The notes beneath the pieces were generated by a model that saw only the letters and a program-made list of their open reading frames with translations, was not told the origin of the DNA and did no database searches. Positions 23,506 through 27,999 of a DNA stretch of 49,799 nt are shown in pieces (position 1 is the stretch's first letter; each line of letters opens with the position of its first letter). The stretch covers positions 1 to 49,799 of the IMG/VR virus record IMGVR_UViG_3300032241_001796. One strand, given 5' to 3'. The DNA is from a virus. A program made the translations under genes and the position numbers.

Positions 23506-24393
23506 ATGGCTACGCAAATTTTCAATTCTTACAGAGAATTTTTAACCAGACAAGACAAAAGCATCAATGGTGTAGATGCTGAATTTGTAAATGACAACCC
23601 AGAATGGGAAAAGCAAAACGAAAGCAATAAATCATGTTGGAACTGCTCTGACTGCTCTGGCTGCTCTGGCTGCTCTGGCTGCTCTCGCTGCTCTCACTGC
23701 TCTGACTGTTCTGACTGCTCTGGCTGCTCTCGCTGCTCTGGCTGCTCTCGCTGCTCTCACTGCTCTGACTGTTCTGACTGCTCTGGCTGCTCTCGCTGCT
23801 CTGGCTGCTCTCGCTGCTCTCGCTGCTCTGACTGTTCTGACTGCTCTGGCTGCTCTCGCTGCTTTGACTGCTCTGACTGCTCTGGCTGCTCTGACTGCTC
23901 TGACTGCTCTCGCTGCTCTCACTGCTCTGACTGCTCTGACTGCTCTGGCTGCTCTGGCTGCTCTGACTGCTCTGACTGCTCTGGCTGCTCTGACTGCTCT
24001 GGCTGCTCTCGCTGCTCTCGCTGCTCTCGCTGCTCTGGCTGCTCTGACTGCTCTGGCAAAAAAGACATAAACCCTTTTATTGTCCCTGTGATAGAAAATA
24101 TACATCAAAAAGTATTAGAGGCAGTAAGCCAACCAAATGCCCTAAATATGGGTGATTGGCATACTTGCGATACAACACATTGCCGCGCTGGATGGGTTGA
24201 AGTATTAGCAGGTGAAGCAGGAAAAGAACTTTCCAGAAGAACATCTACATTATTTGCAGGGATGCAGATATATGCAGCATCATCCGACATAGAGGTAAGT
24301 CCGGTTCGGTTCTTTGAAAGTAATGAGGTTGCAATGGCTGATATGAAAGCGTGTGCAGAAGCAGAAATAGAAGCAAACAAAAACAAGCAATAA
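23506..24393 (+). CDS. Cys-Ser-x triplet-repeat protein
   Basis: A 295-residue protein. Residues 1-43 are an ordinary charged domain (SYREFLTRQDKSINGVD). Residues 44-184 are 47 consecutive triplets, all starting with Cys; all but the first (CWN) and one (CFD) are C-S-x with x limited to Asp, Gly, Arg or His. Residues 185-295 form a separate domain (NALNMGDWHTCDTTHCRAGW, then STLFAGMQIYAASS and VRFFESNEVAMAD) that I recall in other phage proteins, some with pentapeptide-like repeats. The triplets could form a regular beta-solenoid with Cys ladders, binding metal or a surface partner. Function unknown. Strong own promoter. Confidence 0.8.
   Translation: MATQIFNSYREFLTRQDKSINGVDAEFVNDNPEWEKQNESNKSCWNCSDCSGCSGCSGCSRCSHCSDCSDCSGCSRCSGCSRCSHCSDCSDCSGCSRCSGCSRCSRCSDCSDCSGCSRCFDCSDCSGCSDCSDCSRCSHCSDCSDCSGCSGCSDCSDCSGCSDCSGCSRCSRCSRCSGCSDCSGKKDINPFIVPVIENIHQKVLEAVSQPNALNMGDWHTCDTTHCRAGWVEVLAGEAGKELSRRTSTLFAGMQIYAASSDIEVSPVRFFESNEVAMADMKACAEAEIEANKNKQ
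23635..24057 (+). repeat. Forty-seven tandem 9-base units with 63-base super-repeat
   Basis: Units are TGCTCT plus GAC, GGC, CGC or CAC. Nearly all variation is confined to the first two bases of the third codon. Units 6-12, 13-19 and 20-26 (23680, 23743, 23806) are copies of a 63-base block. A silent TGT in the fourth unit of each copy shows that they arose by duplication. Confidence 0.9.
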
Positions 24394-26112: not shown

Positions 26113-26862
26113 ATGAAACACGGTAGTTTATTTAGTGGTATTGGTGGATTTGATTTAGCTGCGGAATGGATGGGTTGGGATAATGTGTTTCATTGTGAAA
26201 TAGAAGAATACCAAAGAGGAGAATTAAACAATAATTTTCCTAAAGCAATAAGTTTTAAAGACATAAAAGATATAGATGGAACACAATTCACAAATTCAAT
26301 TGATATTATTTCCGGAGGATTCCCATGTCAGGACATTAGTATCGCAAACACATATAATGGGGGGGGGCAAGGAATTAAAGGCGAAAGGTCGGGTTTATGG
26401 CAAGAATACGCCCGTCTTATTCGGGAGATTAGACCTAAATACATCGTCTTTGAAAACAGTCCAATGCTCGTTAATAGAGGATTGGAGCACGTCCTATGCG
26501 ACCTTTCCAGAATGGGGTATGATGCGGAATGGAGAATGTTTTATGCTACGCAATTTGGATTCAATCACAGAAGAAAAAGAATTTATGGAATTGCCTACTC
26601 CAAGCAAATCGGATGCGAAAATAATTTTGAACAAGGTGGAATCCTATCAAAAATATTACAACAAAAACCATCAAGACAAAATCCTTTATCAATGCCATTT
26701 GAACGGTTTAACAGCAAATCAGACTATGGACATATACGAATGGATGATGGGTTTTCCAAAGAATTGGATAAGAAGGTTATCGAAAGTTATGGAAACGCTA
26801 TAATTCCAATAATAGCATTTGAAATATTTAAAGCTATACAACAACATGATGATAGTCTATAA
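26113..26862 (+). CDS. dcm: DNA (cytosine-5) methyltransferase
   Basis: A 249-residue C5-methyltransferase with all core motifs: LFSGIGGFDLA (AdoMet binding), GGFPCQDIS (catalytic Cys), FENS in place of ENV, FNHRRKRIYGIA, and the end motif YGNAIIPIIAFEIFKAI. It is short for the family, so the target-recognition region is compact. It would methylate cytosine to hide phage DNA from host enzymes. A nine-G run lies just after the catalytic motif. The same DNA from 26276 to 26803 also encodes a conserved-looking protein in the +1 frame. The end overlaps the next gene. Confidence 0.85.
   Translation: MKHGSLFSGIGGFDLAAEWMGWDNVFHCEIEEYQRGELNNNFPKAISFKDIKDIDGTQFTNSIDIISGGFPCQDISIANTYNGGGQGIKGERSGLWQEYARLIREIRPKYIVFENSPMLVNRGLEHVLCDLSRMGYDAEWRMFYATQFGFNHRRKRIYGIAYSKQIGCENNFEQGGILSKILQQKPSRQNPLSMPFERFNSKSDYGHIRMDDGFSKELDKKVIESYGNAIIPIIAFEIFKAIQQHDDSL
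26276..26803 (+). CDS. Overprinted +1-frame protein inside the methyltransferase gene
   Basis: A 175-residue frame fully inside the methyltransferase gene. Its second half carries phrases I recall as recurring in phage methyltransferase-associated proteins: FPEWGMMRNGECF, ELPTPSKSDA and YEWMMGFPKNW. The first half (FPEDSHVRTLV) is the +1 translation of the catalytic region and is probably not a domain by itself. It could be made from ATG 26276, or as a fusion to the first ~85 methyltransferase residues if one G is lost from, or slipped over in, the nine-G run. Function unknown; expression not proven. Confidence 0.5.
   Translation: MEHNSQIQLILFPEDSHVRTLVSQTHIMGGGKELKAKGRVYGKNTPVLFGRLDLNTSSLKTVQCSLIEDWSTSYATFPEWGMMRNGECFMLRNLDSITEEKEFMELPTPSKSDAKIILNKVESYQKYYNKNHQDKILYQCHLNGLTANQTMDIYEWMMGFPKNWIRRLSKVMETL
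26359..26367 (+). repeat. Nine-G homopolymer in methyltransferase gene
   Basis: GGGGGGGGG encodes Gly-Gly-Gly directly downstream of the catalytic PCQ motif. Nine keeps the methyltransferase in frame; eight would switch the reading into the +1-frame product that ends at 26803. Such tracts are classic phase-variation switches. Confidence 0.75.
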
Positions 26863-27058
26863 CGATAACTCCCAGATGCCACACGGCTACCATCAAGGAA
26901 AGCTATTAAAAGATGTTCCCCCTGGTTATCTGTTATTGATTTATGAAAGCATGTACAATTCAAGACCAAGTAGTGATTATCCGTTATCAGAGTATATACA
27001 TAGTAACCTTTCAAGATTAAAGAGCCAAAATGAGCAGCATAAAACTAAAAATAGCTAA
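26846..27058 (+). CDS. DUF3820-like small protein
   Basis: A 70-residue protein with the DUF3820 pattern: MPHGYHQGKLLKDVPPGYLLLIYES. The family is of unknown function and is common in phages, often near nucleases. The start (MetMet at 26846) overlaps the methyltransferase end and its stop overlaps the next gene, so it is part of a coupled operon. Confidence 0.65.
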   Translation: MMIVYNDNSQMPHGYHQGKLLKDVPPGYLLLIYESMYNSRPSSDYPLSEYIHSNLSRLKSQNEQHKTKNS

Positions 27059-27515
27059 CTGTATTGATTGCGGCAAGGAAGGGCCGGTAATAGCCAAACG
27101 CTGCCAGTTATGCTATAAAAAGCATAGGAGCAAGGTAAACGCTGAAAAGACCAGCAACAAGGCTAAAAAGGTACAAAAAGAGGTATTCGGCACCTATTTT
27201 GCCAGCCAAGCCCACAAAATGCCTGCACGATGTGAGGAAACAGGACAATTACTACCAACTAAACCCGAATGGCTAAAGAAAAGCTGCATGGCGCATATCC
27301 TACCGAAAAGAGATAAATACGGTTTTCCATCGGTTGCCCTGCATCCTAAAAATATGGTTTTCCTGATGCCGGATATTCACCAGAACTTTGATAACCTCGG
27401 TGAATCGTATATAGTGAAAATGAAGATTTACCCAATTCTAAAAGAACGTGTAGCAGCATTGATCCCATTGTTGACCGAAGCAGAAAAAAGAAAAGTGCCT
27501 GAATATTATTTATAA
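27030..27515 (+). CDS. Zinc-ribbon HNH-type nuclease-like protein
   Basis: A 161-residue protein. The N-terminal CIDCGKEGP and CQLC form a zinc ribbon. The centre has CMAHILPKRDKYGF, followed by NMVFLMPDIHQNFDNLG, which fits the HNH/NinG-type pattern (H...N...H). Probably a metal-dependent endonuclease acting in recombination or host DNA cleavage. Overlaps the previous gene by 29 bases. Confidence 0.6.
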   Translation: MSSIKLKIANCIDCGKEGPVIAKRCQLCYKKHRSKVNAEKTSNKAKKVQKEVFGTYFASQAHKMPARCEETGQLLPTKPEWLKKSCMAHILPKRDKYGFPSVALHPKNMVFLMPDIHQNFDNLGESYIVKMKIYPILKERVAALIPLLTEAEKRKVPEYYL

Positions 27516-27531
27516 ATAAAACCTACTAAAA

Positions 27532-27999
27532 ATGGATGCAAAATTCATAGAGAAATTAATAGTTGCCACCTGCGATAAATTCGGAGTACACCCAAGTTCG
27601 CTGTATGAAAAATGCAGAAAGTATGAGATAAAGGTTTGCCGGTGGATAGTCTGGGAGTTGATAATCGTAAGTCAAAAGGCAACCCTTGAAAGAACAGCCT
27701 GCATATTTGGAAAGTATAACCATTCTACAATTATACATGCGCTCGATAATATAAAGGGTTTACTGGAGTACGATAAAACGGCAAAGATTAATTATAACAG
27801 GATAGTATCTGAATTGGGCATTACAATATCTTCAGTTAATTCTTTCAGAAAGCAAAGAGAGAGTAGAAAGGAAAGAAAGGTAAGGATAGATTCTGCGAAC
27901 TCAAGCGTAGATAAGGGAAATCCTATTTACGTTTCAGATCAGCATTTAAAAAAGAAGATGTTGAGATACAAAAAGATGCAACAAAATTTAACCGCTTAA
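27532..27999 (+). CDS. DnaA domain IV-like DNA-binding protein
   Basis: A 155-residue protein. Residues ~1-75 follow the DnaA C-terminal domain: an initial helix with FGVHPSSLYEKCRKYEI, then CIFGKYNHSTIIHAL, matching the DnaA-box recognition segment (G-x-D/N-H-S-T-V-x-H-A). There is no ATPase domain. The rest is basic (RKQRESRKERKVR). It may bind DnaA boxes in the phage origin or compete with host DnaA. No origin was identified by eye. Confidence 0.65.
   Translation: MDAKFIEKLIVATCDKFGVHPSSLYEKCRKYEIKVCRWIVWELIIVSQKATLERTACIFGKYNHSTIIHALDNIKGLLEYDKTAKINYNRIVSELGITISSVNSFRKQRESRKERKVRIDSANSSVDKGNPIYVSDQHLKKKMLRYKKMQQNLTA

Follow-up and report, generated by a model that had tools for sequence, protein, structure and literature searches.

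The stretch of DNA analysed here, referred to below as the window, is the IMG/VR virus record IMGVR_UViG_3300032241_001796 with its whole length of 49,799 bases, and the locus of interest within it is a C5-cytosine DNA methyltransferase (MTase) gene, alpha, which holds a second open reading frame (ORF), beta, in its +1 frame. Beta is wholly nested in alpha, with an overlap of 528 bp. Its probable start codon is immediately preceded by an in-frame TAG at 26273-26275, and no other ATG lies ahead of the conserved block LFPEDSHVRTLVSQ. The two ORFs and the motifs that matter for the comparison with canonical enzymes, including the place expected for a target-recognition domain (TRD), are located as follows.

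26113-26862, plus strand: alpha, putative catalytic subunit of a C5-cytosine DNA MTase, 249 amino acids (PF00145, phrog_363, AlphaFold2 match to M.HhaI)
26276-26803, plus strand: beta, 175-amino-acid ORF in frame +1 of alpha, probable target-recognition plus motif IX subunit (phrog_1008, relatives, shuffle test)
26276-26278, plus strand: probable ATG start of beta (sequence)
26323-26334, plus strand: motif IV of alpha, PCQD, with the catalytic Cys; the depletion of +1 stops starts about here (alignment)
26504-26539, plus strand: beta motif FPEWGMMRNGEC, family consensus TWPxWGMMRNG, overlying MGYDAEW of alpha (alignments)
26588-26614, plus strand: beta motif ELPTPSKSD, family form LPTPxASD, repeated in many relatives (alignments)
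26605-26769, plus strand: stretch of alpha between motifs VIII and X, unconserved in frame 0 and constrained in +1 (codon-position rates, AlphaFold2)
26738-26767, plus strand: motif IX of beta, EWMMGFPKNW, family form LNPxWVEWLMGFPxGWT, aligning with canonical LTxREAARLQxFPDxF
26791-26808, plus strand: motif X of alpha, GNAIIP (sequence, alignment)

In regard to the catalytic chain, alpha matches phrog_363 (E = 3.8e-60) and PF00145 (E = 1.5e-41), the latter only over about profile positions 1-169 of 324. Motifs I, IV (PCQ), VI (ENV/ENS), VIII and X occur in alpha in that order, with residues that are invariant in the alignments, while motif IX, LTxREAARLQGFPDDF in canonical enzymes, is absent from frame 0 and present in the +1 frame. 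A preliminary description of this DNA had credited frame 0 with complete C5 MTase motifs through GNAIIP, which is correct for motifs I-VIII and X; however, the set is incomplete, because the PF00145 match covers about half of the profile and motif IX is found only in +1. The arrangement of a canonical monomer, with the TRD and motif IX on the same polypeptide, is thus not the one seen in alpha. The AlphaFold2 model of alpha (predicted local distance difference test, pLDDT, of 84) has M.HhaI as its best match in the PDB (Foldseek E = 2.5e-15) and reproduces with high confidence the M.HhaI catalytic domain plus motif X. Residues 165-225, at the place expected for the TRD, were modelled with low confidence (pLDDT mostly 45-70). 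Judged by its motifs, alpha is a catalytic subunit with the S-adenosylmethionine-binding and catalytic motifs I-VIII and X, and with no conserved target-recognition region.

The three +1 phrases singled out in the preliminary description, FPEWGMMRNGEC, ELPTPSKSD and EWMMGFPKNW, were found where it had placed them, all within 26276-26803, and its remark that they recur in phage methyltransferase-associated proteins agrees with the match of beta to phrog_1008, labelled "DNA methyltransferase" (E = 1.4e-12). All 150 beta proteins that were aligned matched this family. The label suits the overlapping gene; against Pfam and NCBIfam the 150 beta proteins themselves gave nothing except one chance match, and no match to a catalytic motif, and beta of the window matched no family of these two databases. 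Likewise, the beta profile returned only chance matches to Peroxin-14 among PDB sequences. In a profile-profile alignment, the family form of motif IX was the only stretch of beta matching canonical MTases, and it fell on their own motif IX. As far as sequence comparison goes, the +1 ORF represents a real protein family under selection, with the shared motifs GMMRNG, LPTPxxSD and ExMMGFPxxW. The last of these reads as motif IX, and beta has conserved sequence at the position where canonical enzymes place the TRD.

The length of the beta ORF is far beyond chance expectation. When synonymous codons were permuted within alpha, the longest +1 ORF had a mean of 56 and a maximum of 137 codons in 20,000 trials, compared with the 175 observed, and when the codons of alpha were redrawn from the usage of neighbouring genes, the maximum in another 20,000 trials was 167 codons, so that 175 was never reached. 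The guanine-cytosine content at third positions of alpha is 0.19 before the overlap, 0.34 within it and 0.0 after it.

Stop codons were also counted, in regions bounded by MTase motifs alone, in a non-redundant set of 73 relatives that had been selected solely on alpha motifs. Between motifs IV and X, 26 stops were observed in +1 against 300.0 expected, and the frame is fully open over this distance in 63 of the 73 relatives, where 1.9 would be expected; in the +2 frame of the same relatives, 722 stops were observed against 680.6 expected. Observed and expected +1 stops were 166/176 in the N-terminal region, 4/73 between motifs IV and VI, 1/100 between VI and VIII (hence 5 against 173 across motifs IV-VIII), 12/107 in the TRD and 113/75 from motif X onward, so the depletion is limited to the part that starts at motif IV and ends shortly ahead of motif X. 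In a control set of 37 canonical C5 MTases, +1 stops were as frequent as expected (372 against 381.3), and neither a +1 ORF nor a match to the beta profile was found, while 14 split enzymes from genomes sampled alongside the canonical ones had none (0 against 37.6 expected).

Substitution rates, obtained from 17 disjoint close pairs, add to this picture. Rates at the three codon positions are 0.09/0.05/0.18 in motifs IV-VIII, as in coding by frame 0, versus 0.33/0.20/0.20 between motifs VIII and X. The frame-0 nonsynonymous/synonymous ratio, dNN/dSN, is 0.86 in the TRD compared with 0.13-0.23 elsewhere, and the corresponding +1 ratio, dNN/dNS, is 0.41 in the TRD region. Divergence at fourfold synonymous sites is close to 0.3 for motifs I, IV and X, and it drops to 0.12 across GMMRNG and to 0.05 across MMGFP. 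In motifs IV-VIII, frame 0 is strongly constrained while +1 stays free of stops, and between motifs VIII and X the constrained frame is +1, with frame 0 nearly neutral. The dual constraint is uneven, acting on both frames over roughly 300 bp and mainly on +1 over the remainder. The preliminary description had seen both frames as family-like over about 300 bases; this is close to the length constrained in both, but the overlap itself is 528 bp. Its claim that the DNA is truly dual-coding withstood the check for constraint in one frame only, and is supported by the stop depletion, by the substitution patterns and by the Streptomyces phage loci described below.

Signals for the start of beta were inspected in 191 non-redundant genes. 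In the interval from the last +1 stop to motif IV, a +1 start codon is present in 98% of them (73% expected), an ATG in 91% (50% expected) and a start accompanied by a Shine-Dalgarno-like site in 73% (31% expected). A recurrent start site lies about 23 codons before motif IV, over the DNA for a conserved PEVPxYDD-like segment of alpha, for example GGAGGTGCCGATTTATGACG, and in another group ATGAATGAG places the two start codons at a distance of four bases. No clear Shine-Dalgarno match accompanies the ATG at 26276 of the window. Because conserved +1 starts are enriched, mostly with Shine-Dalgarno-like sites, the sequences favour internal initiation over frameshifting, and beta would be translated from its own start.

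The relatives of this gene pair are widely spread. A tblastn search with beta against 50,697 phage records matched 30 of them, and those opened place beta in the +1 frame of an MTase. From each IMG/VR or GTDB scan the nearest 80 matches were examined. In IMG/VR, 80 of 80 loci found with the beta profile overlap an MTase in frame +1 (one of them, L049, with a local indel), and 80 of 80 loci retrieved by MTase motifs alone (GGFPCQD or a pattern that includes ENS/V) carry the beta family in +1, a figure valid for near relatives only, since beta-bearing members seeded the MTase search set. In GTDB genomes, the beta family was again in the MTase +1 frame at 80 of 80 loci, which by their record titles belong to Pseudomonadota, Actinomycetota, Acidobacteria (Geothrix, Bryobacterales), Verrucomicrobia with Kiritimatiellae, Patescibacteria, Myxococcales, Bacillota, Planctomycetes (Thermoguttaceae), Nitrospirae, Gemmatimonadales, Elusimicrobia, Desulforhopalus and one Alkanophagales archaeon. 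Many of these loci may be prophages or viral contigs within bins. The spread thus covers phages, at least 12 bacterial phyla and one archaeon, and in nearly all cases only the MTase frame is annotated in public records.

Several of the relatives have altered structures. L049 (2252-3601) has an HNH-like insertion after EKLMGWPDEW and a one-nucleotide change at a G homopolymer shortly past motif IV, and could possibly represent a homing element plus a sequencing error. In Mycobacterium phage Llama (L312:589-1348), a one-nucleotide indel throws alpha and beta out of frame at one and the same position and fragments both; the shift is common to OfUltron, Seabastian, Ochi17, Modragons and Jinglebell, relatives such as SG4 are intact, and the broken pieces of the Llama type are annotated as two "DNA methylase" genes. 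In E. coli PCP07014 (L319:2501-3262), RefSeq calls the MTase a pseudogene due to an internal stop, and DNA related to this phage MTase is present in no more than 4 of the 5,426 complete E. coli genomes.

Natural variants also link the two frames. In the Streptomyces phages Samy, Euratis and phiBT1, alpha stops right after motif VIII and the +1 ORF continues alone, presenting in one frame LPTPTASD-like repeats, a segment such as LAARFAEWLMGLPDGW, motif IX and then a GNGVVP motif X. The C-terminal half of beta therefore lies beyond the end of alpha with its motifs still kept, which argues that beta is no shadow of the MTase reading. In phiBT1, gp9.1 (L315:883-1383) is annotated "DNA methylase may be inactive", and the unannotated +1 ORF behind it holds the TRD, motif IX and motif X. 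At three other loci (L157:2486-3520, L161 and L244:2257-3230), motif IX (LNPDWVEWLMGFPIGWT) is in the frame of alpha itself, beside GNAVVP/GNSVVP, with LPTPTASD still in +1 and stops gained in the upstream +1 frame; by their sequences, these are natural frame-switch variants. In a tree of the catalytic domain, 90 split enzymes are set apart from 39 canonical ones with a support of 0.79, and the Streptomyces form branches first, which is consistent, with moderate support, with a single origin and an AquI-like ancestor.

Two-polypeptide C5 MTases are already known. M.EcoHK31I has motifs I-VIII and X on the large chain and motif IX on the small one, with the TRD described as predicted in the large subunit, and M.AquI has the catalytic motifs I-VIII on one chain and the distal variable region with motifs IX and X on the small chain (PMC3404938). 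The motif split of M.EcoHK31I, an Escherichia coli enzyme acting on YGGCCR, is the same as that of alpha (I-VIII, X) and beta (IX) in the window. Lee, Kam and Shaw (Nucleic Acids Research, 1995) reportedly described its small-subunit gene as contained, in a different frame, within that of the large subunit, and the small subunit is said to be similar in length to beta. This nested layout is also that of the window, with 26276-26803 inside 26113-26862 in frame +1. By motif split and layout, the gene pair of the window can be filed as an M.EcoHK31I-type two-polypeptide C5 MTase. M.EcoHK31I differs in being bacterial and of known specificity, and the TRD region of the window is conserved in the small-subunit frame, unlike its predicted large-subunit TRD. 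The chain division of the cyanobacterial M.AquI (CYCGRG), with motifs IX and X both on the small chain, is found in Samy, Euratis and phiBT1; in the window, on the other hand, alpha carries motif X and beta is fully nested in it. The canonical monomers M.HhaI and M.HaeIII share the catalytic domain matched by alpha, but hold the TRD and motif IX in one frame, and those sampled have no +1 ORF.

On these sequence data, the locus very probably encodes a single C5 MTase of the M.EcoHK31I/M.AquI kind, whose two polypeptides are read from overlapping frames, with beta giving DNA recognition. According to this model, beta would bind alpha and supply the recognition of the DNA sequence and the small-domain scaffold, so that neither chain would be active alone and the recognition site would be set by beta. 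The enzyme would presumably shield phage DNA from host restriction or mark the prophage.

Some of the results weigh against this model. The structure model of beta is poor (pLDDT 67; predicted template modelling score, pTM, 0.29) and has no fold match in the PDB, which leaves the predicted TRD fold of beta unproven; the profile alignment of beta with canonical motif IX is weak (E = 0.068); and the scan by MTase motifs was seeded, as mentioned, with beta-bearing members. Furthermore, the substitution ratio in motifs IV-VIII does not by itself separate +1 constraint from the N-terminal baseline (0.51 versus 0.46), so the case in that region rests on stop depletion, start codons and the dip at fourfold sites.

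Alternatively, the +1 similarity could be merely an out-of-frame reading of a conserved MTase, and phrog_1008 a collection of mis-called genes, in line with the fact that all relatives from the three scans overlie MTase genes and that the MTase frame alone is annotated in nearly all public records. However, canonical C5 MTases show no depletion of +1 stops (372/381) and no beta match, conservation peaks where frame 0 is least conserved, and beta motifs survive outside alpha in the Streptomyces phages. Such shadow translation, which the preliminary description had itself seen as a threat to its claim, was rejected on the grounds of the canonical controls, which lack a +1 ORF, and of the Streptomyces loci, and its probability seems extremely small. 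Programmed ribosomal frameshifting, in which ribosomes slip from frame 0 to +1 near motif VIII and produce a single fused enzyme with the TRD and motif IX, would restore the canonical motif order, and natural variants with motif IX in the frame of alpha do exist. Yet +1 is already kept open well ahead of motif VIII (in IV-VIII, 173 stops would be expected and 5 occur), that frame is enriched in starts and Shine-Dalgarno-like sites of its own, and a second slip back would be required for motif X at the window locus. Frameshifting as the sole explanation is disfavoured by the upstream openness and the start codons, and we regard it as highly unlikely.

It could also be that beta is a real nested gene with another role, such as an independent regulator, anti-restriction factor or nuclease merely overlapping the MTase, and the lack of any fold or family match outside PHROG families of the same kind would fit that. 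Against it, motif IX sits in beta and is missing from alpha, beta is joined to motif X in one frame in the Streptomyces phages, alpha has no conserved TRD, and known two-polypeptide enzymes split their motifs likewise (PMC3404938), which makes such a role very improbable.

The surroundings of the MTase in the window hold some further observations. At 23506-24393, a protein of the phrog_31265 family (unknown function) has a long run of CSxCSx repeats, which leaves long open frames in other readings that look like repeat artefacts. The MTase is followed by an HNH_2-like protein at 27030-27515, whose score of 19 bits falls just short of the Pfam cut-off of 21, and by a protein at 27532-27999 that carries the C-terminal DNA-binding domain of DnaA. 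Seven neighbouring genes were scanned, and none of them was recognised as coding for a restriction enzyme.

The two-polypeptide kind of C5 MTase is thus already known, and what is new is its breadth, the near-universal lack of annotation and the evidence for recognition in beta. The open-access PMC literature yielded no paper describing phage C5 MTases with a nested subunit, and the passages found in the GeneTack frame-transition survey do not mention the beta family. Compared with the layout described for M.EcoHK31I, the predicted specificity determinant of this enzyme type would be moved to the nested subunit. It is likely that a large clade of MTases from phages, prophages and bacteria of many phyla, and from at least one archaeon, annotated as single genes, consists of obligate heterodimers, with the specificity subunit encoded inside the catalytic gene in its +1 frame. 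Many phage and bacterial MTases have been annotated, cloned and given specificities from the frame-0 gene alone, and if half of the enzyme is hidden in +1, frame-0 constructs would seem inactive or be misassigned; phiBT1 gp9.1, with its annotated doubt about activity and its unannotated second half, is an example. As a long, ancient and easily tested dual-coding pair with natural frame-switch variants, alpha and beta could serve as a model for the origin of overlapping genes and for shared constraint. If the proposal is true, they would rank among the most ancient and most widely distributed pairs of overlapping genes known from prokaryotes. Along one stretch of DNA, the constrained frame would then change from that of alpha in motifs I-VIII to that of beta for recognition and motif IX, and return to that of alpha at motif X.
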